NCBI GenBank assembly: GCA_025936175.1
Contig: JAICTV010000004.1
Span: 1-61,240, forward strand
Direction: 5' to 3'
From: Phycisphaerae bacterium
Lineage (GTDB): Bacteria; Planctomycetota; Phycisphaerae; Tepidisphaerales; Tepidisphaeraceae
Length of the DNA: 61,240 bases
Below are positions 4,162 to 54,380 of this stretch, piece after piece. The first letter of the stretch is position 1. The number at the start of each line of letters is the position of its first letter. The notes under the pieces were generated by a model. That model made no database searches. It was not told the DNA's origin and was given only the letters and a program-made list of their open reading frames with translations. Made by a program: the position numbers and the translations under genes.

Positions 4162-4767
4162 ATGAATCGCCTGCTTCAAACTCTCGGCATCGGAATCGTC
4201 ACCTTCGGCCTGGCGGTCGGATGTCACAACAACAGGGACAACACCACTTCCGGCGACAAAGACTCGATGAAGATGGCCAACGAAGGGTCGGCGAACAAGA
4301 AGGTCGCGGTGGCGGACATCAAGCCGTCGCAGGCGGCGGCGACGCAGCCGTCCTGGGGCAAACCGACCGGCACCGTCACCTTCACGCAAGTCGGTGACAA
4401 GGTGAAGATCCACGCGGACCTCACCGGCCTTCCGCCGGGCAAGCACGGCATCCACATCCACGAATCCGGCGACATCTCCGCCCCCGACCTGATGAGCACC
4501 AAGGGCCACTACAACCCGGACCATCACGCGCACGGCGGGCCGACCACCAGCCCCGTTCACGCCGGCGACTTCGGCAACCTCATCGCCGACGTCAGCGGAA
4601 AGGCCACGCTCGACCTCACCGTCGATGACATCTCGGTCGGCGGGGAGAAGAACGATATTCTCGGCAAAGCCGTCATCATCCACGCGAAGGCGGACGACCT
4701 GAAGAGTCAGCCCTCCGGCAACGCCGGAGCGCGCATCGCGGGCGGGGTGATCGAGATGCAGAAGTAG
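4162..4767 (+). CDS. sodC: Cu/Zn superoxide dismutase, lipoprotein, lacking the usual disulfide
   Basis: Converts superoxide to peroxide and oxygen outside the cytoplasm. The N-terminus is a lipoprotein signal with lipobox LAVGC (Cys21), followed by a linker with AATQPSW. Metal and catalytic residues are present: H98 and H100 in HGIHIHESGD, H116 in KGHYNP, H124 in HAHGG, H133 and D136 in HAGDFGN, H174 in VIIHAKADDL and R191 in GNAGARIA. The two disulfide cysteines usual in the family (GDC and RxACGV) are replaced by Ile105 and Gly194. Cys21 is the only cysteine. RBS CGGAGG lies 8 bases before the ATG. Confidence 0.9.
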   Translation: MNRLLQTLGIGIVTFGLAVGCHNNRDNTTSGDKDSMKMANEGSANKKVAVADIKPSQAAATQPSWGKPTGTVTFTQVGDKVKIHADLTGLPPGKHGIHIHESGDISAPDLMSTKGHYNPDHHAHGGPTTSPVHAGDFGNLIADVSGKATLDLTVDDISVGGEKNDILGKAVIIHAKADDLKSQPSGNAGARIAGGVIEMQK

Positions 4768-4852
4768 ATCGACGATTGATTCATCGGATCATTGACGAGT
4801 GAAGAATTGCCCCTTCAATCGTCAATGACTCAATGACACAATCGTCAATCCA
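4768..4852. repeat. Fold-back repeat built from CGTCAAT/ACTCAATGAC words
   Basis: GACGATTGATTCATCGGATCATTGACGA is answered by TCGTCAATGACTCAATGACA and a further CGTCAATC. The words recur in both orientations around a spacer. It fills the whole gap between sodC and the FRG gene. Confidence 0.7.
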
Positions 4853-4854
4853 CC

Positions 4855-5820
4855 ATGGCTTCTCACGTCGCCAAATCCTGGGACGACCTGATGGACCGGC
4901 TCTACGCCTCGTCGTGGAAACCGGGGCTCGGCCGCTTTCGCTCGTCGTACGCGTTTCGCGGGATGCAGCGCGCCGACGCGCGGCTGACGACGACGCTCTC
5001 GCGGCTGGGCGGCGCGTTCCCACGTCAGGAAAACCACCTCCTGCGCAACTTCCGCAAGTACGCCCATCGCAACGCCGTCGAAGGGGATTCGGTGTGGAAC
5101 TGGCTGTCGCTCGCCCAGCATCACGGGCTGCCGACGCGGTTGCTCGACTGGACGTTCTCCCCTTTCGTCGCGCTGCACTTCGTCACGCAGGACGTGGAGC
5201 GCTATGACGTGGACGGCGTCGTCCGCTGCCTCGACTACGTCCGCGCCCATCGGCTTCTGCCGCGGAAGCTGCGCGCGGTGCTGAAGACGGAGCAGGCGGA
5301 AGTCTTCACCGCCGAGATGCTCGACCGCGTCGCCGACGCGCTGCCGGCGCTCGATCGGCTTGCCTGCGGCAGGCCCGCGCTGATCTTCCTCGAGCCGCCC
5401 AGCCTCGACGACCGCATCGTCAACCAGTTCGCGCTCTTCTCGCTGATCTCTTCGCCGACGGTGCAGCTTCAGCAGTGGCTCGACGCGCACCGCGACCTGC
5501 ACCACGAGATCGTCATCCCCGCCAAGCTCAAATGGGAGATCCGCGACAAGCTCGATCAGGCAAACTTGACCGAGCGGGTGCTCTTCCCGGGCCTGGACGG
5601 CCTGTGTCGCTGGCTCAGGCGCTACTACAGCCCGCGCGCCGACGTGGACGCGCTCAAGGCCGCCGCCGCCGGCGCGGAGACCGATCGAAACATCACGCCG
5701 GTGCGTCGAGCAAGCGATGAAGCCGCTCATGCCGGTAACGGAACATCGCGCGCAGCTTCGGGCGGACGATCAAAACATCCGCGACCCGCCCGAGCGGGCC
5801 GAGGCCGACGGCGTAAGTGA
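4855..5820 (+). CDS. FRG-domain protein
   Basis: The FRG domain is named for its Phe-Arg-Gly motif. It is visible as YAFRGM near residues 31-36, and the conserved core LAQHHGLPTRLLDW sits at about 84-97, followed by SPFVALHFV. FRG proteins are found as single genes or within defence and toxin loci; their molecular activity is unsettled. The last ~40 residues are Arg/Gly/Ala-rich low complexity and overlap the convergent SRPBCC gene by 128 bases, so the stop may have drifted. A small palindrome GCCTGC-g-GCAGGC lies in frame at 5362-5374. No partner gene is adjacent. Confidence 0.78.
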   Translation: MASHVAKSWDDLMDRLYASSWKPGLGRFRSSYAFRGMQRADARLTTTLSRLGGAFPRQENHLLRNFRKYAHRNAVEGDSVWNWLSLAQHHGLPTRLLDWTFSPFVALHFVTQDVERYDVDGVVRCLDYVRAHRLLPRKLRAVLKTEQAEVFTAEMLDRVADALPALDRLACGRPALIFLEPPSLDDRIVNQFALFSLISSPTVQLQQWLDAHRDLHHEIVIPAKLKWEIRDKLDQANLTERVLFPGLDGLCRWLRRYYSPRADVDALKAAAAGAETDRNITPVRRASDEAAHAGNGTSRAASGGRSKHPRPARAGRGRRRK

Positions 5821-9077: not shown

Positions 9078-9196
9078 GGGCGACACAAGTGTCGCCCCTG
9101 CAGCTCCTCGCGCGGAATGATCGTAGGGGCGACCCCCCCGTCGCCCCATTTTTCTACGCGCGCCGAAGAGGGCGACGCAGGCGTCGCCCCTACAGC
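9078..9196. repeat. Cluster of three GGGCGAC-type palindromes (family A)
   Basis: Three hairpins in a row: GGGCGACAC-aa-GTGTCGCCC (9078-9097), GGGGCGAC-ccccc-GTCGCCCC (9126-9147) and GGGCGACGC-ag-GCGTCGCCC (9170-9189), the last followed by CTACA. Related copies are at 15652, 46151 and 54355. Confidence 0.85.
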
Positions 9197-13367: not shown

Positions 13368-13625
13368 ATGTATCAGATTGATCGCACCCATCGTGTCCGT
13401 GTCGGCTTCGCGCGCGTTTTGCTCGAGGAGTTCCTCGCCCGCGCGGCACAGAACGAACCCAACCGAAGCCAACGAAAATCGCGCCGAAACCGCGTTTGCC
13501 GCACGCCAACGCGGTTTCACGCCGAAAACAGCCGCGCGCCGGTTGCAAAACGAACCCATTGCGGCGGGGAAAAGCGAACCCATCGCCCGCGGGTCTGGCC
13601 GTTGACCCGTCGCGGTCATGTTGCG
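13368..13625 (+). other. Open in-frame leader before the glycosidase-like gene, with degenerate GAACCCA words
   Basis: TAAGGAGG sits 9 bases before the ATG at 13368, and the frame stays open into the downstream gene. The leader would encode 86 basic residues (start MYQIDRTHRVRVGFARV) ahead of a signal peptide, which is unusual. Bases 13449-13590 contain repeated GAACCCA-type words (ACGAACCCAACC, ACGAACCCATTG, GCGAACCCATCG) typical of intergenic repeats. It is either a separate short peptide, a very long N-terminal extension, or an untranslated leader. Confidence 0.4.
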
Positions 13626-15353
13626 ATGGTGCCGGCCATGCTCCTCTGGCTTCTCCTCGCCCTCGTCCCCGCCCCCGCCCTCTTCGCCGCTCAGCCCGCG
13701 ATCAAGAACGTGATCGTCACCTTCCAGGACGGCACGCAGCAGCGCGTGGATGTGGCGGCGCCGTCGCAGAACGCGACGACGCAGCCCGCATCCACCCGGC
13801 CGGCGACAAAGCCAGTCGATCCCGCCGCCGCCCCGCCCGCGCGGCGGATCGAGCCGTTCCTCGGCGTCAACCTCGAGGCGCTGCGCGACTACGACCGCCA
13901 GTTCATGTTCATCGACGCGATGAAGACGTCGCGGAAATTCGGCAGCGCCAAAACGCCCTACGACGGCAAGGCCACCCTCGGCCCGGACGGCTGGCCCATG
14001 GACGATGCGGGCACGCTGGTCATGACCGATGTGAAGAACGTCAACGGCGTCTACCACTTCTTCGCCAGCGGCAGGTGCGAGCTCTCCACGCTCAACTCGC
14101 CGGCGCGGGTGCAGAACCTCGCGTACGACGCCAAGCGCGATCGCACCTACGCGGAAGTCGTCGTCGCCGCCGAGAGCGACAAGCAAATCACGCTGTCGCT
14201 GGCGTTCAAGAACACCGGCGGCGCGGGCCTGCGCGACATCAAGCTGCTGCGCCCCGGCTACGACAGCGACGCGCAGGTCTTCACCGGCGAATTCCTGCTC
14301 GCGCTGCACCCCTTCGGCGCGATCCGCTTCATGGATTACCTGCGCACGAACAACTCGAAGATCGCCAGGTGGGATGAACGCCCCAAGCAGACGGACGCGC
14401 AGTACTCGACCGAAAAAGGCGGGCCGTACGAAACCGCCATTCAACTGTGCAACTTCGCCGGCAAGGACGCGTGGCTCTGCGTGCCCGCGCTGGCGGATGA
14501 TGACTTCGTCCGCCAGCTCGGCCAGCTCGTGCGCGATCAGCTCCGTCCCGATCTGCACTGCTACGTCGAGTATTCCAACGAAGTCTGGAACGGCCAGTTC
14601 CAGCAATACAAGCAGAACAAGACCGCGGCGCAGCAGGAGGTGGCGGCGGGCGATCAGACGCTCAACGACGGCGGGAAGGACTCCAACGTCGAGTACTGGG
14701 CGCGCAAGCGCATCGCCAAGCGCGCCGTGGAGATCAAGAAACTGCTCGGCGACGACCCGCGCTTCCGCGTGGTCCTCGCCAGCCAGGTCGGATATCAGCC
14801 GCCGGGCGCGGTGCTGAAGATGCAGCTCGAGTACGTGGAGAAGTATTTCGGCCCGCCGAGCCAGTTCTTCTACGCCGTCGCCGGCGCGCCGTACTTCTCA
14901 CCCGGCAAGGACGAAGCCGATCCGGCGAAGAAGAAATGGTTCACCGAGCGCGACGACATCACCCCCGATCAGATCTGCGACCGTTTGCTCGCGCGCACCG
15001 GCACGAGCGCGAACGACAACGTCAAGGCGTTTCACGCGCTGGCGGACAAATATCGCCTGCGCAAGTTCGCCTACGAAGGCGGGCTCGATCTCCAGCAGTT
15101 CAACAAGCACCTCGACGTGAAGATCGCCAGCCAGTACGACCCGCGCGCGGGGAGGGCGGTGGAGGACTACCTGAACAAATGGTACGCCGCCGGCGGGGAC
15201 GCGATGTTCTACTTCGACCTCAGCGGCCGCTACACCAAGAGCGGGTACTGGGGGCTGACAGAAGATATTCGTGATCTCTCGGCGCCCAAGTACCAGGCCG
15301 CCGCGCGGGTCTCGCAGCGGTTAAGCGACACCGCCGCCACCGTCGGCAGGTGA
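13626..15353 (+). CDS. Exported glycosidase-like protein (clan GH-A-type features)
   Basis: The ATG at 13626 yields a signal peptide (AMLLWLLLALVPAPALFAA) and a 575-residue protein. A linker with ATTQPASTRPATKP follows. The catalytic-type segment VEYSNEVWNGQF (NE as acid/base in clan GH-A enzymes) lies near residue 315, preceded by DAWLCVPALADDDFV and followed by the likely nucleophile strand KFAYEGGLDL near 480. A polysaccharide-degrading role is inferred; the family is not assigned. The frame is open upstream to an ATG with a strong RBS at 13368. It ends 48 bases before the promoter of an orphan RNA. Confidence 0.72.
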   Translation: MVPAMLLWLLLALVPAPALFAAQPAIKNVIVTFQDGTQQRVDVAAPSQNATTQPASTRPATKPVDPAAAPPARRIEPFLGVNLEALRDYDRQFMFIDAMKTSRKFGSAKTPYDGKATLGPDGWPMDDAGTLVMTDVKNVNGVYHFFASGRCELSTLNSPARVQNLAYDAKRDRTYAEVVVAAESDKQITLSLAFKNTGGAGLRDIKLLRPGYDSDAQVFTGEFLLALHPFGAIRFMDYLRTNNSKIARWDERPKQTDAQYSTEKGGPYETAIQLCNFAGKDAWLCVPALADDDFVRQLGQLVRDQLRPDLHCYVEYSNEVWNGQFQQYKQNKTAAQQEVAAGDQTLNDGGKDSNVEYWARKRIAKRAVEIKKLLGDDPRFRVVLASQVGYQPPGAVLKMQLEYVEKYFGPPSQFFYAVAGAPYFSPGKDEADPAKKKWFTERDDITPDQICDRLLARTGTSANDNVKAFHALADKYRLRKFAYEGGLDLQQFNKHLDVKIASQYDPRAGRAVEDYLNKWYAAGGDAMFYFDLSGRYTKSGYWGLTEDIRDLSAPKYQAAARVSQRLSDTAATVGR

Positions 15354-15400
15354 GAGCGCTTCTCAATTCATCTTGAGCGACGGACGCGCCGATAAAAGGA

Positions 15401-15428
15401 TTGAATAGTCTCTTTTATGTGCTATAGT
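15401..15428 (+). promoter_or_regulatory. Promoter-like element of orphan RNA 1
   Basis: TTGAAT at 15401-15406, a 16-base spacer and TATAGT at 15423-15428 preceded by TGC (extended -10). The predicted transcription start is near 15435. Confidence 0.6.
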
Positions 15429-15434
15429 CGATTC

Positions 15435-15595
15435 AGTCACCTGCGGCGGTTGCAGAGCGACACCAACGGACCGTTCTTCATCACCCGCCGCCGCTGACTG
15501 ACCATTTGAATGCTGTTTTCGCGCGGGGGGAAAGCAACAGCTTGGGGTTCGTGCCGGAGCGGGTCGATTGCTTCGCCTCGCTCCGGCGTTTTTTT
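15435..15595 (+). ncRNA. Structured orphan RNA 1 with promoter and intrinsic terminator
   Basis: About 160 nt between the end of the glycosidase-like gene and the convergent prmC. Helix 1 joins CAGTCA (15434-15439) and GCGGCGG (15443-15449) to CCGCCGC-TGACTG (15488-15500), with a 3-base bulge. Helix 2 joins GCTGTT (15512-15517) to AACAGC (15536-15541) around a G-rich loop. The transcript ends in GCCGGAGCG (15553-15561), CGCTCCGGC (15579-15587) and seven Ts. No ORF fits inside. I cannot place it in a known RNA class; a 6S-like regulator is possible but unproven. Confidence 0.6.
15553..15595 (+). terminator. Intrinsic terminator of orphan RNA 1
   Basis: A perfect 9-bp stem GCCGGAGCG/CGCTCCGGC, followed after one G by TTTTTTT at 15589-15595. 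Confidence 0.8.
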
Positions 15596-15651: not shown

Positions 15652-15710
15652 TGTAGGGGCGACGCCTGCGTCGCCCACGTCCGCGAAAGGGCGACGCAGG
15701 CGTCGCCCTT
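15652..15710. repeat. Two family A palindromes
   Basis: GGGGCGACGC-ct-GCGTCGCCC (15656-15676) and GGGCGACGC-ag-GCGTCGCCC (15689-15708) are inverted copies of the same unit, 37 bases before the prmC stop. Confidence 0.85.
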
Positions 15711-15746
15711 ACCGCAGCGATGTGTCGTGATGATTCAGGCGCCGTA

Positions 15747-16643
15747 TTACTTCCGCGCCGCCGTCAGCACGCGCTCGTGTCCCGCGAAGTCCTTGAGCAC
15801 GCGCACGTCATCGAAATGCTCCGCGTGTGACGACGCCAGCTCCTTCATCCCCGGGCCCTGGTCGAACTGGATCTCGAGGAAGATCCGCCCGCCGGGCAGC
15901 AGTCGCTCCGCCGCGCCGTCGAAGATGCGGCGGTGGACGACCAGGCCGTCGATCCCGCCGTCGAGCGCCGCCACCGGCTCGTACTCGCGGACGTTGCGGT
16001 CGAGCTTCTCGATCTGGCCGCTCGGAATGTACGGCGGGTTGGCGACGATCAGGTTGAACGGCTGCGGATCAGGGACGCGCGAGAGCGCTTCATAGAGATC
16101 GCCCTGCTCGACCGTCACCCGCCCTTCCAGCCCGAGCTTCGCGACGTTGGTCCGCGCGACCTCGACCGCGCGCTCGCTCATGTCGGTGGCGATGACGACG
16201 GCGTTCTTCAACCGCGAAGCGATCGCCGCCGCGATGCACCCGCTGCCGGTGCACAGGTCCAGCACGCGCGGCGACTCGAACCCCGCGGCGTTGCGCGACG
16301 GTTGCAGCACGTTCTCGACCAGCGTCTCGGTATCCGGCCGCGGGATCAGCACGTCCCGCGTGACGTCGAACTCGAGGTTGAAGAAGTACGCCTTGCCGGT
16401 GAGGTACGCGATCGGCTCGTGCTCGCCGGCACGCTGCACCAGCTCGCGATAGCGCGTCAGGTCCTTCTCGGAAAGCGGCCGCTCGTAGTCGGTGTAGAGC
16501 TTGATGCGCGGCACCTTGAGGACGTGCGCGAGAAGGAGCTCGGCGGACAATCGCGGGCCGTCGACTTCCTTGCGGGTGAAGAAGCCGCTGGTCCATTCGA
16601 GCAATCGTTGGACCGTCCATGGCCCGGTGGCGGCGCTACTCAT
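15747..16643 (-). CDS. prmC: Release factor glutamine methyltransferase
   Basis: Methylates the GGQ glutamine of peptide-chain release factors using SAM. The N-terminal helical domain includes LSAELLLAHVL, and the SAM motif LDLCTGSGCIAAAIA lies near 125-139. The catalytic NPPY is in IVANPPYIPSG near 195. The frame opens at 16781, but the extra 46 residues do not look like PrmC; the ATG at 16643 gives 298 aa, the usual length. It is divergent from the unknown exported gene at 16754. Confidence 0.92.
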   Translation of the reverse strand: MSSAATGPWTVQRLLEWTSGFFTRKEVDGPRLSAELLLAHVLKVPRIKLYTDYERPLSEKDLTRYRELVQRAGEHEPIAYLTGKAYFFNLEFDVTRDVLIPRPDTETLVENVLQPSRNAAGFESPRVLDLCTGSGCIAAAIASRLKNAVVIATDMSERAVEVARTNVAKLGLEGRVTVEQGDLYEALSRVPDPQPFNLIVANPPYIPSGQIEKLDRNVREYEPVAALDGGIDGLVVHRRIFDGAAERLLPGGRIFLEIQFDQGPGMKELASSHAEHFDDVRVLKDFAGHERVLTAARK

Positions 16644-16753
16644 CGGCGGCGGATTGTAGGTGAGGGGGCCATCGACGTGCCAGCGACGCGCGGAGATGAT
16701 GATCGACCGCGGCGAGCCGACGGGGAACTTTGCCCGCAACGGGACGTCTGAAG

Positions 16754-17971
16754 ATGCGCGTGAAACCCATGGTTGGCGCAACGATCCTGCTGCTGCTCGC
16801 GCTCGCGACTGCTGCGCAGGCGCGCGGCGCGGCGTCGGCGACGACGCGCTTTGCGGACGACGACGTCGCGGTCACGATCGTCACGCCGGCCGCCGACCCC
16901 ACGCTGATCAAGGCAGTCGTGAAGGACGCATCCGCGCAGACGCTGTTCGACACGATCGCCGGGAAGTCGCAGACCCGCCTGCTCGTCCGGCCGGACGCGC
17001 TGGAGCATCCTTCGGTCGCCGGCGCGACCTTCTCGGCCATCTTCGACGGCGAGCCGTTCTGGAACGCGATCGGCGACGCGTGCGAATCGACCGGGCTGTC
17101 GCCGGTCACGTCGTGGGACGCGCATGAGGGCGACGCGCTGGTGATCACCCGCGGCGGCCCGTGGAAGAACGTTTCGGTGGACGGCGCGACCGCCGTCCGC
17201 GTCGTCGGAATCACGCGCTCGAAGGGGTTCGACTACACGACGATGCACGGCGGCGACGAGCAGGTGCGCGTGCGGCTGGAGGTGTGGCCCGAACCGCGCA
17301 TCCGCCGCTGGTCGTACCTCGCAGCCCCACGCGGAAGCGCGGGGTTGGATGCCAGGTCGGCAACCGCGGTCGCGCGCACGGGTTTCGTCGATGAAGCGAG
17401 CGACGACGCGGGGCACACGCTGCTTGCCAAATCGCAACCGATGCAGATCGACGGCGGCGCGCTCCCTTTCACCGGCGAGGCTGTCCATGAAGCCAGCGTT
17501 ACGCTCGCGTATCCGCCCGGCGCCCGGCAGAAGATCGCGCTGCTCCGCGGACACCTGGCGCTGCGCGTGCCGAAGGAGATCGTCGAGATTTCGATCGCGA
17601 ACCCTGCGGCCCATGACGGCGCGAAGCTCGCCGGGGCGCGGAACGACATGACGTTCTTCGCGCTGAAGAACCGCGCCGATCCGATGCGCTACACCTTCGA
17701 GCTGCACGTGACGCGCAAGGACGATCTCGACGATCGCTGGACCGCCGTCCGCCAGAGCGTCGGGCGGCTGCAGGCGGTGACGAAGATGGTCCGGTACGAC
17801 GGCAGCGAAGCGTCATCCGGCCGCGGCGGCGCATCGGAGAATGAGAAGGAAGCGTGGGGCGGATTCGATTGCGATGAGCCGGAGAAGTTGAAGGCCGTGA
17901 AGATCATGTTTCCGCAGGAGATGCGGACGGTCGAGGTGAAGTTTGAGTTCAAGGATCTGGTGCTGCCGTGA
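16754..17971 (+). CDS. Exported protein of unknown function, first of a paralogous pair
   Basis: The start at 16754 gives the signal peptide KPMVGATILLLLALATAAQA. A secretin/STN-like N-terminal region (KDASAQTLFDTIAGKSQTRL) may be present near 50-70. The protein ends VEVKFEFKDLVLP, a C-terminal motif shared with the next gene (DVPAEFKDLPLP). Bases 17325-17344 form an in-frame palindrome CCCCaCGC-gga-aGCGCGGGG encoding APRGSAGLD, where a repeat seems to have inserted. The stop overlaps the next start as GTGA. No function known. Confidence 0.7.
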   Translation: MRVKPMVGATILLLLALATAAQARGAASATTRFADDDVAVTIVTPAADPTLIKAVVKDASAQTLFDTIAGKSQTRLLVRPDALEHPSVAGATFSAIFDGEPFWNAIGDACESTGLSPVTSWDAHEGDALVITRGGPWKNVSVDGATAVRVVGITRSKGFDYTTMHGGDEQVRVRLEVWPEPRIRRWSYLAAPRGSAGLDARSATAVARTGFVDEASDDAGHTLLAKSQPMQIDGGALPFTGEAVHEASVTLAYPPGARQKIALLRGHLALRVPKEIVEISIANPAAHDGAKLAGARNDMTFFALKNRADPMRYTFELHVTRKDDLDDRWTAVRQSVGRLQAVTKMVRYDGSEASSGRGGASENEKEAWGGFDCDEPEKLKAVKIMFPQEMRTVEVKFEFKDLVLP

Positions 17972-33982: not shown

Positions 33983-36103
33983 ATGCGGGGAAATTCCGAA
34001 TCGGTTGAACCGCTCGAGCCGCGCCGGCTGCTCGCCGTCGCCGGCTTCGACCTGAGCTTCGGCGCCGGCGGCGAGGCGAGCTTCGATTTCGGCTCGCCGG
34101 TGACGATCAACGCGTCGCTCGTGCAGGGCGACGGCAAGATCCTCCTGGCGGGCACGCTCGGCGACACCACCAGCAGGTCCGGCGGCGACGCCTTCGTCGC
34201 GCGCGTCAAATCCGACGGATCGCTCGACGACACTTTCGGCAACGGCGGCATCGTCACCGTCGATCACAACGCCACCGACGAGACCTTCAACGACATCATC
34301 GTGCAGAGCGACGGCAGGGTCCTCGCCGGCGGAAACGTCGATAGCGATCACTACATGATCGCCCGCCTGCTCAGTGACGGGAGCATCGACGCCAACAGCG
34401 GCTTCGGCGGGACCACCGGCGTGGTCAGCGGCAGCGGCACGATCAAGGCGATGTCGCTCTCCGCGTCCGGCACATCGCTCTTCACCGCCGGCGGCGATCT
34501 GGTCCGCGAGCACGCCGCCTCGACGGGCGTGCTCGACAACAGCTTCGGCACGCTCGGCATCGTCAGCGTCGTCGGCGCGACCAAGCTTGATGCGTTCGAC
34601 GACGATGACCTTGCCCTTCGCGCCGACGGCACGCCGATCGTGATCGGCCGCGGCACGCTCGCGTCCTCGCCGCCGGCGGGAAGCGAAGATGAGTTTCACG
34701 ACGTCGGAAACCCGTCGGGCCTGTTCATCGTCGCGCTCACCAGCGCGGGCCAGAAAGACAACACCTTCGACTTCGACGGCGTGCAGCCGGTCTTCGATGA
34801 TGCCGACAGCGTCGGCGACGACGGCTCGTTTGGCGGCAAGCTCGCGGTCGCCTCGGACGGCACGCTTTACTCCGCGCACAACCAGTCGTATCACGGCGGA
34901 AACATCGTGCTGACGCGCTACGACAGCGCCGGGCAGCCCGTCTGGATGCGGGCGGTCTCTTATGACTCCGATGAGGTCGGGAGCGCCGACTTCTTTCTCG
35001 ACTCCGGCGGCGGCCTGACCATCGGCTCACCCCAACATCACGATCGCTACCATCCCGACGGCACGCTCGACACATCCTTCGGCGACGCCGGAGCGCTGGA
35101 CTTACCGCTCGCCGGTTCCTTCTCCGACAACCATGAAGCCGTCGGCACGTTTACCTGCTCGCCGGACGGGTCGAAATTGCTTTTGGTCGGCCGCGACGCG
35201 GCGGTGCTCGATCGCTTCACGACGACCGTCGACACCATCGCCGATCATGTCCATCTCACCAGCCGCGGCACAATCGGCATCACCGGCAACCCGATCGATG
35301 AGGCATACGGAATCAAGTCGGTCGGCGGCCGCATCCGCGTCGCCCGCGGCGCGGAGGTCATCTCCTTCCTCGCCTCCAAAGTGAAGCGCATCGGCGCGAT
35401 GCTCAACGGCGGCAATGACACGCTCAAGGTCTACTCCAACGTGATGCGGACCGTCAGCGCCGACGGCGGCGCGGGGACCGACGTGCTCGTCGGCTCGCCG
35501 CTCGGCGACGTCCTTCACGGCGGCGCGGGAACCAGCGACGGCGACTTCCTCTACGGCAACGACGGAAACGATTCGCTCATCGGCTCCGACGGCGGGGAGT
35601 CCATCTACGGCTTGGCGGGCGACGACACGCTTCTCGGCATCGACGGCAACGACGCGCTCGACGGCGGCGCGGGCGCCGACTCCCTCTCCGGCGGCGCGGG
35701 CGAGCAGGACAACATCTCCTACGCCACGCGGACGGCCGGCGTCCGCTTCATCCCCGACGGCATCGCCAACGACGGCGAAGGCCTCGAGCACGACAACGTC
35801 GCCGGCGACATCGAGTTCATCACCGGCACGAACTTCAGCGACTACCTCGTCGGCGGGAACGTCGACAACCGCATCGAGGGTTTGGCCGGCAACGACACCA
35901 TCGACGGCCAAGGCGGAAACGACGGCCTCTTCGGCGGCGACGGCCGCGACAAGATCATCGGCGGCGCCGGCACCGATCACCTGTTCGGCGGCGGCGGGTC
36001 CGACTGGCTCTACACGTCGGGAGATGGGACGACCGACTACCCCAACGGCGGCGGCGACACGTTTGACCGCTACTACATGGACTCGATCGATGTGCGCGGG
36101 TGA
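33983..36103 (+). CDS. Surface protein with delta-60 repeats and RTX calcium repeats, LEPR-XLL start
   Basis: The N-terminus SVEPLEPRRLLAVAGFDLSF is a canonical LEPR-XLL tag. Residues 20-410 contain delta-60-type beta-propeller repeats (LVQGDGKILLAG, RVKSDGSLDDTFGNGGIVTV, IIVQSDGRVLAGG). From about 490 to 700 come calcium nonapeptides (GGAGTSDGDFLYGNDGNDSL, GLAGNDTIDGQGGNDGLFGG). An embedded segment with SYATRTAGVRF resembles cadherin-like/RTX spacers. A large extracellular binding or scaffold protein is likely; no catalytic residues are apparent. Confidence 0.88.
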   Translation: MRGNSESVEPLEPRRLLAVAGFDLSFGAGGEASFDFGSPVTINASLVQGDGKILLAGTLGDTTSRSGGDAFVARVKSDGSLDDTFGNGGIVTVDHNATDETFNDIIVQSDGRVLAGGNVDSDHYMIARLLSDGSIDANSGFGGTTGVVSGSGTIKAMSLSASGTSLFTAGGDLVREHAASTGVLDNSFGTLGIVSVVGATKLDAFDDDDLALRADGTPIVIGRGTLASSPPAGSEDEFHDVGNPSGLFIVALTSAGQKDNTFDFDGVQPVFDDADSVGDDGSFGGKLAVASDGTLYSAHNQSYHGGNIVLTRYDSAGQPVWMRAVSYDSDEVGSADFFLDSGGGLTIGSPQHHDRYHPDGTLDTSFGDAGALDLPLAGSFSDNHEAVGTFTCSPDGSKLLLVGRDAAVLDRFTTTVDTIADHVHLTSRGTIGITGNPIDEAYGIKSVGGRIRVARGAEVISFLASKVKRIGAMLNGGNDTLKVYSNVMRTVSADGGAGTDVLVGSPLGDVLHGGAGTSDGDFLYGNDGNDSLIGSDGGESIYGLAGDDTLLGIDGNDALDGGAGADSLSGGAGEQDNISYATRTAGVRFIPDGIANDGEGLEHDNVAGDIEFITGTNFSDYLVGGNVDNRIEGLAGNDTIDGQGGNDGLFGGDGRDKIIGGAGTDHLFGGGGSDWLYTSGDGTTDYPNGGGDTFDRYYMDSIDVRG

Positions 36104-36131
36104 TGTGCGCTGTGCGAGTTCGCAGAAGCAA

Positions 36132-36217
36132 TGTCATCCCGGGGTACTCCGAGGGATCTCGGGTATCGAAACGTGTTCGACTCCGAGATCCCTCGCGGAG
36201 TACCGCTCGGGATGACA
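36132..36217. repeat. Family B fold-back repeat
   Basis: TGTCATCCCGGGGTACTCCG and AGGGATCTCGG are answered by CCGAGATCCCTCGCGGAGTA and CCGCTCGGGATGACA, nearly perfect. Confidence 0.9.
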
Positions 36218-36331
36218 GTTAATACGGATCCGGATTAACCCGTGCGCGGGTCGTAAAGGAATGACGAGCGCGCGTTTTAATCCCGACCTGGTATTAGTAA
36301 ATACCTCGCGCGAAAGCCAGCGACCGGAGCT

Positions 36332-36943: not shown

Positions 36944-37075
36944 GAGCGGGTCTCCTTTCGATTGTGGTTGACCAAGCGGCCGAAATATCACGACCACGCA
37001 AAAAGGTGAACGTTAGTTCCGTCTCATCCTGCGAGATTTATCTCACAGACGATTCGGTTGACGGGGGCGAGATTC

Positions 37076-37146
37076 GGGAGGGCGAGGCTCCTGCCGAGCC
37101 GCGGATGCGAACAAAAATCGGGCTCGGCGGGAGCCTCGCCCTCCCA
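37076..37146. repeat. Fold-back repeat, GGGAGGGCGAGGCTCC type
   Basis: GGGAGGGCGAGGCTCCTGCC then GAGCC is answered by GGCTCGGCGGGAGCCTCGCC then CTCCC, an almost perfect inverted repeat around a 21-base loop. It lies at the end of the DcuC-type gene. Confidence 0.9.
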
Positions 37147-37164
37147 ACCTCTCGTCCTGCGAAC

Positions 37165-38625
37165 CTATCGCGCGGCGGCGAGTGCGGCGAGCAGAAGCGC
37201 GACGCCGCCGGCAAAGAGCGGGAGAAACACGCGCTTCACCAGGTCGATCGGCCGCGTCCGCGCCAGCGTGGCGCACATGATCGTCACCGGCGCGACCGGG
37301 CTGCTCGTCCGCCCGTACTGCGCGGCGATCGCGTTCACGCTGCCGACGCGCAGACCGCTGGGGATCGACGCCGCCGATTTACTCGCGCCCGCGCCGCCCA
37401 TTGCGATGGGCAGGATGATGTTGATCACCAGCGGCGCGGTGCCGACCGCGGTGCCGGTCACGCACGCGAACGCCCACGGGATGACGATGCTGGCGACCGT
37501 GACCGCGGCCGGCGCATCTTTCAGATGGGTTGTCATCCTCTCGATCAGACCATTCGCGCGGACCGACTCGGCGAACATCGTCGCCGCGGTAATGATCGAG
37601 ATGACGTGCGCGAAGGCGAAGCCCGCGCCTTCGAAGAAGGTCGCCGGGAGCCTGCCCGCCTGCTTCGGCGAAGCGATCGCGGCGCAGAAGGCGCCGATCA
37701 GCATCGCCGTCGCGATCGCCGCCTGCTCGCCGATCTTGTTCGTGTCCGAGGTCACCAGCGCGGCGGGCATGAGGTCGTGGCGAAGGAGGATCTTTTTCAC
37801 GACGACCAGCAGCAGGATCGGCACGAGCGGGACGAGCGCTTTGAAGAGGTTGATGCGATCGATCGACGTGTCGGCAAGAGTCCTGCTCATGGTGGCGGCG
37901 ATCGATCCCGGCTGCGGGGCGGCGACGTCGAGCGATTCCTCGCCGCCGACGCCCCAGCTCTCGGCGTCTTCGCCCGCGCGGCGCCGCTCGTACATCACCG
38001 CCATCATCCAGAACACGATGCACGCGACGGAGCAGGCGAGCAGGTTGTAGGGGAGCAGGTGGGCGATGATGTCGGTGGCGTCCTGCCCAGTCTGCATCTT
38101 GATCGCCGCGACTTCGACGGCCGCCGGGTTGAGCAATTCGCCGCCCATCGATCCGCCGAGCAGCAGCAGCGCGCCCGCGGTGACGCGCGAGAATCCCGCC
38201 GCCAGTACGAGCGGGATGATCACCGGACCGACCACCGAGACGGTGCTCGTCTGGCTGACGATCGCGGAGTTGACCAAGAACGCGACCGCCACGCCGCCCG
38301 GGATGAGAAGCCACTTCACGTGCCGCAGCGGGCGGATGAGCAGGTGGACGAGGTGTGCGTCGCAGCCGGTCAGCTTGCAGACGTAGGCGAATCCCATCGC
38401 CGAGCAGATCGGGACGACGGATGACGGATTGGTCAAACCCTTTGCGAACTCGACGAAGAGTTGAGCGAAGGCGTTGAAGCGCTGGCCCGCGACGTCATGT
38501 TGCGCCGCGCGGACCGCGAAGAGCGCCGCCGCCGCGCCGACGAGGACGAGGCGGATGTCCGCCCGCTTCCACAGCGCGACGCCGCCGATGAGAACGACCG
38601 CCACCGCCGCGAGGATCACGGGCAT
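37165..38625 (-). CDS. dcuC: DcuC-type C4-dicarboxylate carrier
   Basis: An inner-membrane transporter with about 12 hydrophobic segments. The family block LTGCDAHLVHLLIRPLRHVK, then IPGGVAVAFLVNSAIVSQTS, and GGSMGGELLNPAAVEV are typical of DcuC. Near the end come GTAVGTAPLVINIILPIAM and QYGRTSSPVAPVTIMC. The frame runs 26 codons further upstream (start MKRLWILTTGYWLLATGFSL), but those are encoded by a repeat (ccagtag words), so the ATG at 38625 is preferred. The direction of transport is not predictable. Confidence 0.85.
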   Translation of the reverse strand: MPVILAAVAVVLIGGVALWKRADIRLVLVGAAAALFAVRAAQHDVAGQRFNAFAQLFVEFAKGLTNPSSVVPICSAMGFAYVCKLTGCDAHLVHLLIRPLRHVKWLLIPGGVAVAFLVNSAIVSQTSTVSVVGPVIIPLVLAAGFSRVTAGALLLLGGSMGGELLNPAAVEVAAIKMQTGQDATDIIAHLLPYNLLACSVACIVFWMMAVMYERRRAGEDAESWGVGGEESLDVAAPQPGSIAATMSRTLADTSIDRINLFKALVPLVPILLLVVVKKILLRHDLMPAALVTSDTNKIGEQAAIATAMLIGAFCAAIASPKQAGRLPATFFEGAGFAFAHVISIITAATMFAESVRANGLIERMTTHLKDAPAAVTVASIVIPWAFACVTGTAVGTAPLVINIILPIAMGGAGASKSAASIPSGLRVGSVNAIAAQYGRTSSPVAPVTIMCATLARTRPIDLVKRVFLPLFAGGVALLLAALAAAR

Positions 38626-38649
38626 GGGCGGGGATGGTAACAGGAGCGA

Positions 38650-38731
38650 GAAGCCGGTAGCCAGTAGCCAGTAGCCAGTAGTCAGAATCCAGAGCCGCTT
38701 CATCCTACTGGCTACTGGCTACTGGCTTCTC
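38650..38731. repeat. Heptad fold-back repeat (GTAGCCA/CTACTGG)
   Basis: GAAGCCGGTAGCCAGTAGCC with AGTAGCCAGTAGTCAG is answered by CTACTGGCTACTGGCTACTG with GCTTC. Tandem 7-base words run into an inverted partner around a 17-base loop. Confidence 0.9.
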
Positions 38732-38734
38732 CCC

Positions 38735-39346
38735 TCACCCCTTCATCGCTCGCGCGATCGCATCCTTTTCCGGCACATCATTTCGGCCGTGATCGGTGAT
38801 CTCGTCGTAGCGTTCCTGGACCTTCTGCGACGGCACCTCGATCACGCCGAGGTATTGCTCGCAGAAATCATTGCACGCCTTGCGGATGACCGGCTGCGTG
38901 TCGCGCTCGCTCATGCTTGCGGCGGTGAGCTGACGGCCGATGAACTTGGCGCCGATTATCTCGGCGGTCTGCTTGGCGTTCTTGTAGGACGTTTCGGAGA
39001 TCTGCCGGTGGCCTTCCTCGTGGGCTTTGATTTTTTTCGTCGTGTCGGTCGGCAGCCAGATGACGATGGCGAGCTTGAGCGTCGCGTTCACGCCGGTGAT
39101 TTTCATGACCGGTTTTTCGCCGGGCTGCTGCGAGACTTCGACTTCGATCTGCACGCCGCAGCCGAATTTCGATTCCGTGACGGCGGCTTCGCCGGGTTTG
39201 AGCGGCGGCATTTCGGAGGCGGGATGCTTCGGGTCGAACGAGCGCGTCTTCAGGTCCGGCGGCGTCTGCTTGACGACGACCTGCGCGGCCGCCAGCGATG
39301 CCGTCATCAACAACACCAGCATGCACAAACTCAATCGCAACTTCAT
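38735..39346 (-). CDS. DUF922-type exported protein with HExxH motif
   Basis: The signal peptide MKLRLSLCMLVLLMTASLAA is followed by the mature protein from Gln22. HEEGH at 109-113 gives a zincin-like metal site, as in DUF922 predicted metalloproteases; the downstream part is helical (SETSYKNAKQTAEIIGAKFI). Two Cys pairs are possible (C63; C144 and C148). A peptidase role is plausible but unproven. It is followed by a heptad repeat and dcuC on the same strand. Confidence 0.8.
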   Translation of the reverse strand: MKLRLSLCMLVLLMTASLAAAQVVVKQTPPDLKTRSFDPKHPASEMPPLKPGEAAVTESKFGCGVQIEVEVSQQPGEKPVMKITGVNATLKLAIVIWLPTDTTKKIKAHEEGHRQISETSYKNAKQTAEIIGAKFIGRQLTAASMSERDTQPVIRKACNDFCEQYLGVIEVPSQKVQERYDEITDHGRNDVPEKDAIARAMKG

Positions 39347-46150: not shown

Positions 46151-46220
46151 TTGCAGAGGCGACGGCTGCGTCGCCTTCTTCGAAACCAACAAACGCGGGC
46201 GACACAAGTGTCGCCCCTGC
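46151..46220. repeat. Two family A palindromes inside the capsid set
   Basis: GGCGACG-gct-GCGTCGCC (46158-46175) and GGGCGACAC-aa-GTGTCGCCC (46197-46216), the latter identical to 9078-9097. Host-type repeats thus lie within the viral-like genes. Confidence 0.8.
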
Positions 46221-54354: not shown

Positions 54355-54380
54355 AGGCGACGCCTGCGTCGCCCCTACAG
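54355..54380. repeat. Family A palindrome containing a stop codon
   Basis: GGCGACGC-ct-GCGTCGCC (54356-54373) then CCTACAGG. The CTA at 54375-54377 is the stop codon (TAG) of the ATPase gene on the minus strand. Confidence 0.8.

Follow-up and report, generated by a model that had tools for sequence, protein, structure and literature searches.

An intergenic region in a Phycisphaerae bacterium (Tepidisphaeraceae; assembly GCA_025936175.1, contig JAICTV010000004.1) probably contains a genuine, ordinary small-RNA gene restricted to its host's lineage, and we infer the transcription, stability, regulatory role and target of this RNA from sequence signals. Within the window (the whole stretch of DNA analysed, 61,240 nt), the candidate sits between two convergent genes, a + strand gene with its stop at 15353 on one side and, on the other, prmC, which ends at 15747 on the − strand. 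The small-RNA reading is favoured because the promoter is unique in the window, the first helix and the terminator strongly exceed shuffled sequences, no open reading frame fits within the transcript and the candidate is single copy, and it is weakened because no homologue was found in the relatives searched, the fold of the whole is modest and the terminator may serve only the upstream gene. The features of the locus are as follows.

13368 to 15353, + strand: upstream gene, a 661-codon frame of uncertain start, with the candidate RNA in its 3′ flank
15392 to 15418, no strand: perfect AT-rich dyad of 7 bp (ATAAAAG/CTTTTAT) lying across the −35 box, a putative operator
15401 to 15428, + strand: extended −10 promoter, with TTGAAT (15401–15406), a 16-nt spacer, and TGC followed by TATAGT (15423–15428)
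15434 to 15500, + strand: helix 1, which would close off the 5′ end of the predicted RNA, made of 6 bp, a 3×3 internal loop and 7 bp, with a further hairpin inside
15509 to 15541, + strand: proposed helix 2 with a G-rich loop, at chance level (z −0.5)
15553 to 15595, + strand: intrinsic terminator, with a perfect 9-bp stem, a 17-nt loop with inner pairs and a T7 tail
15747 to 16781, − strand: prmC (release-factor glutamine methyltransferase), with PF17827 PrmC_N and methyltransferase domains and an uncertain start

Judged from its sequence, a promoter at 15401–15428 is credible because the host's 5.5-Mb assembly has just two matches to the strict pattern TTGA-N(14-16)-TGNTATANT (reversed control, 0), the other copy lying directly upstream of dnaG, a gene recognised by the three primase domains of its product (zinc-ribbon, catalytic core and Toprim). 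Scanning for promoters returned it as the sole promoter-like site between 14500 and 16500, and across both strands of the window it was the sole TG-extended site scoring at least 9/12 (10 shuffles gave a mean of 0.5). Transcription from it is predicted to start at about 15434–15436. The dyad over the −35 box, the sole AT-rich 7-bp dyad with such spacing in the window, is possibly an operator, a hint at regulation that is unproven.

Evaluating the predicted transcript for structure, we found that helix 1 pairs CAGTCA with TGACTG and GCGGCGG with CCGCCGC around its internal loop, that its 20-nt arms (15433–15452 and 15482–15501) are 85% complementary, and that it is more stable than shuffles (z −3.9). 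The window has 11 sites with inverted repeats like it (0.35 in shuffles), such that helix 1 is more than chance yet not unique within the window. The second helix (GCTGTT/AACAGC) has just 6 bp, an alternative register competes with it, and the segment that holds it (15506–15547) folds no better than expected. Taken as a whole, the 160-nt fold is a succession of separate local hairpins and only modestly stable (z −1.6 and −2.3 in two shuffle tests; near the 5th percentile when GC-corrected against window segments of the same length). The predicted transcript holds no complete reading frame, as one 26-codon frame (15417–15497) begins inside the spacer and −10 region and the remaining frames pass through the terminator. 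The preliminary description had proposed an orphan structured RNA of ~160 nt, and its extended −10 promoter, 13-bp bulged first helix, perfect 9-bp terminator with T7 and lack of any fitting ORF all hold up, whereas its second helix around a G-rich loop and its suggested housekeeping identity do not.

At the 3′ end, the terminator stem pairs GCCGGAGCG (15553–15561) with CGCTCCGGC (15579–15587), followed by the T7 run at 15589–15595. This element was missed by an initial scan that limited loops to at most 8 nt, folds well beyond shuffles (z −4.8), and is one of five window sites that combine a mismatch-free stem of 8 bp or more with 6 or more T in 8, strong terminators being scarce here. A small-RNA gene is expected to show a promoter and a terminator on one strand within 50–400 nt and a transcript that contains no protein-coding frame; both are found here, with the candidate promoter on the terminator's own strand and 125 nt before it.

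The same hairpin lends itself to a different explanation, which we consider possible though on balance unlikely, namely that there is no independent RNA gene, that the hairpin and T7 run are the upstream gene's terminator, and that its 3′ UTR carries helix 1 and the promoter-like site only by chance or as relics. Consistent with this, 15553–15595 is the one strong + strand terminator detected after the upstream gene's stop at 15353, helix 1 is GC-rich in a window of 65% GC that holds its 11 similar inverted repeats, and the candidate shows no conservation in the relatives searched. Against it stands the rarity of the promoter match, one of only two genome-wide, where the reversed pattern has no match and the second copy belongs to a genuine gene. 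Helix 1 is retained in the predicted fold of the longer read-through transcript. The upstream gene itself matched no family in Pfam or NCBIfam, has distant homologues (29–44% identical) in nine relatives from the host's family, and has a paralogue (37% identical) in the host's own genome. Some of its homologues are embedded in much longer open frames.

Seeking the candidate in other genomes, we found no homologue by blastn in 60 relatives, the only matches being short chance ones, nor any match below E 0.2 when 100 relatives were searched with R1, a single-sequence covariance model of the candidate, for which the candidate itself was the only convincing hit among the 101 genomes. Extending R1 across the phylum (392 genomes) added one further weak match, within a 363-codon open frame that runs on the opposite strand; the match's E-value of 0.002 applies to a single genome and is thus expected by chance over nearly 400. 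The region downstream of prmC in 16 relatives has other neighbours and no trace of the candidate, and blastn against the six nearest loci gave only a 31-nt chance match. Plasmids gave no match to the candidate, and viral contigs none to an exact 20-mer. Its single copy in the host genome argues against a dispersed repeat. Compensatory changes in the helices would need homologues for comparison, and these searches returned none. Helices without conservation in relatives had been named in the preliminary description as part of what would refute the RNA, and in form this is the outcome obtained, but the nearest available relatives belong to other genera (scanning GTDB genomes for prmC returned no genus-mate, the best relative being only 72% identical), so that a young RNA with rapid turnover would look equally unconserved.

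If the candidate is a small-RNA gene, RNA polymerase would start near 15435 at the extended −10 promoter and halt at the T7 run, giving a ~160-nt untranslated RNA with its 5′ end sealed in helix 1 and its 3′ end formed by the terminator hairpin. Lying in the upstream gene's 3′ flank, it may use the same terminator as that gene, as 3′-UTR small RNAs that have promoters of their own do. Bacterial small RNAs of this sort regulate by base pairing as a rule, and this would be the most likely action here, by way of the unpaired linker at 15501–15512 and the G-rich stretch near 15525; the earlier suggestion of a new regulator is a possible one. Hfq (PF17209), which an Hfq-dependent small RNA needs in its host, was not found in the host genome (86% complete) or in any of the 26 genomes of the family, and was found in 5 of 14 controls, so the candidate would act without it. 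MicL and DapZ represent the kind of intergenic or 3′-UTR small RNA that has its own promoter. The candidate resembles them in having its own sigma-70-type promoter in a gene's 3′ flank, a length of ~160 nt and possibly a shared intrinsic terminator, and differs in belonging to a family in which no Hfq was found, in being unconserved and in being a predicted transcript. A more ambitious version, in which a young, genus-restricted structured regulatory RNA has a strong extended −10 promoter, a dyad operator over the −35 box and an undescribed Hfq-free mechanism, seems to us rather improbable. The small RNAs of Phycisphaerae seem to have received little attention, and a literature search surfaced no study of them. 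As no Hfq was found in this family, any base-pairing RNA verified in it would offer a way to test regulation without that protein. On present evidence the candidate is one unconserved RNA.

The convergent arrangement also raises the idea that the candidate works chiefly by tail-to-tail antisense pairing with the prmC mRNA, whose leftward transcript may enter 15434–15595. The stretch separating prmC from the candidate yielded no strong − strand terminator, making overlap of the 3′ ends possible, but a REP-like palindrome (15653–15712) intervenes at which the prmC transcript may end or be stabilised, relatives do not share this layout downstream of prmC, and the overlap is hypothetical; we regard this role as very unlikely.

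We give even less credence to a small protein gene, intact or decayed. The 26-codon frame holds DTNGPFFIT, which resembles the cyclophilin motif DTNGSQFFIT, and this likeness accounts for several weak, recurring blastn matches in relatives. That frame, however, begins upstream of the predicted transcript, the likeness is limited to about 10 residues with nothing further along the protein, and a Pfam search stayed blank even with the threshold relaxed to E 10, on which grounds we rejected a cyclophilin remnant. A CsrA sponge was likewise rejected, as the candidate has only three GGA motifs, one of them ANGGA, which by our own estimate is about what base composition predicts.

That the candidate is the host's 6S or another housekeeping RNA has next to no probability, for nothing positive speaks for it beyond the impression of a missing 6S given by a blank RF00013 search of the host genome, and a family-built model places the host's 6S on another contig (91.8 bits) and gives the candidate 2.5 bits, which excludes 6S itself. 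The covariance search against Rfam that had been proposed as a check assigned the candidate to no family: across the whole window none reached its cut-off, and relaxed E-values yielded only the REP-like palindrome at 15655–15712 or chance matches, so that membership in other Rfam families was rejected along with 6S. The preliminary suggestion of a missed housekeeping RNA, for example a 6S-like one, is further weakened because such an RNA should recur in relatives and the candidate does not. The candidate is, like the 6S RNA (RF00013) of its host's Phycisphaerae family, intergenic, structured and of similar size order, but those 6S RNAs, of 200–253 nt, each fold into a single long helix that joins the two ends and opens into a bubble at the centre, and no such helix is present in the candidate's predicted fold of successive local hairpins.

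Our search for the host's 6S yielded a reusable by-product, in that 6S RNAs of this family are mostly missed by the Rfam cut-off and recovered by a family-built model. RF00013 matched 6S in 24 of 61 relatives, 12 of them above its cut-off, and among the 26 family genomes only one (G018) exceeded its gathering score. The model built from seven family-level 6S RNAs (R2) found 6S in 22 of these 26 at E ≤1e-3, the host included. The host's copy (G000:C215:5420-5672, − strand; locus L182) is an independent find because it was not among the seven source sequences, and it shows the long end-to-end closing helix and the motifs common to its relatives. A short sequence pattern for the family's 6S did no better in the host than its reversed control and was superseded by this model. 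One family genome (G003) gave three matches to the model.

Elsewhere in the window, the REP-like palindrome GGGCGACGCAGGCGTCGCCC and its variants occur at 9078–9189, 15653–15712, 46157–46216 and 54355–54374, occasionally paired, with 13 matches at up to 3 mismatches against 0.07 expected. Four further segments (4721–4920, 36081–36280, 37001–37200 and 38601–38800) have predicted folds far stronger than GC content predicts, and such segments of excess fold stability are likely long inverted repeats.
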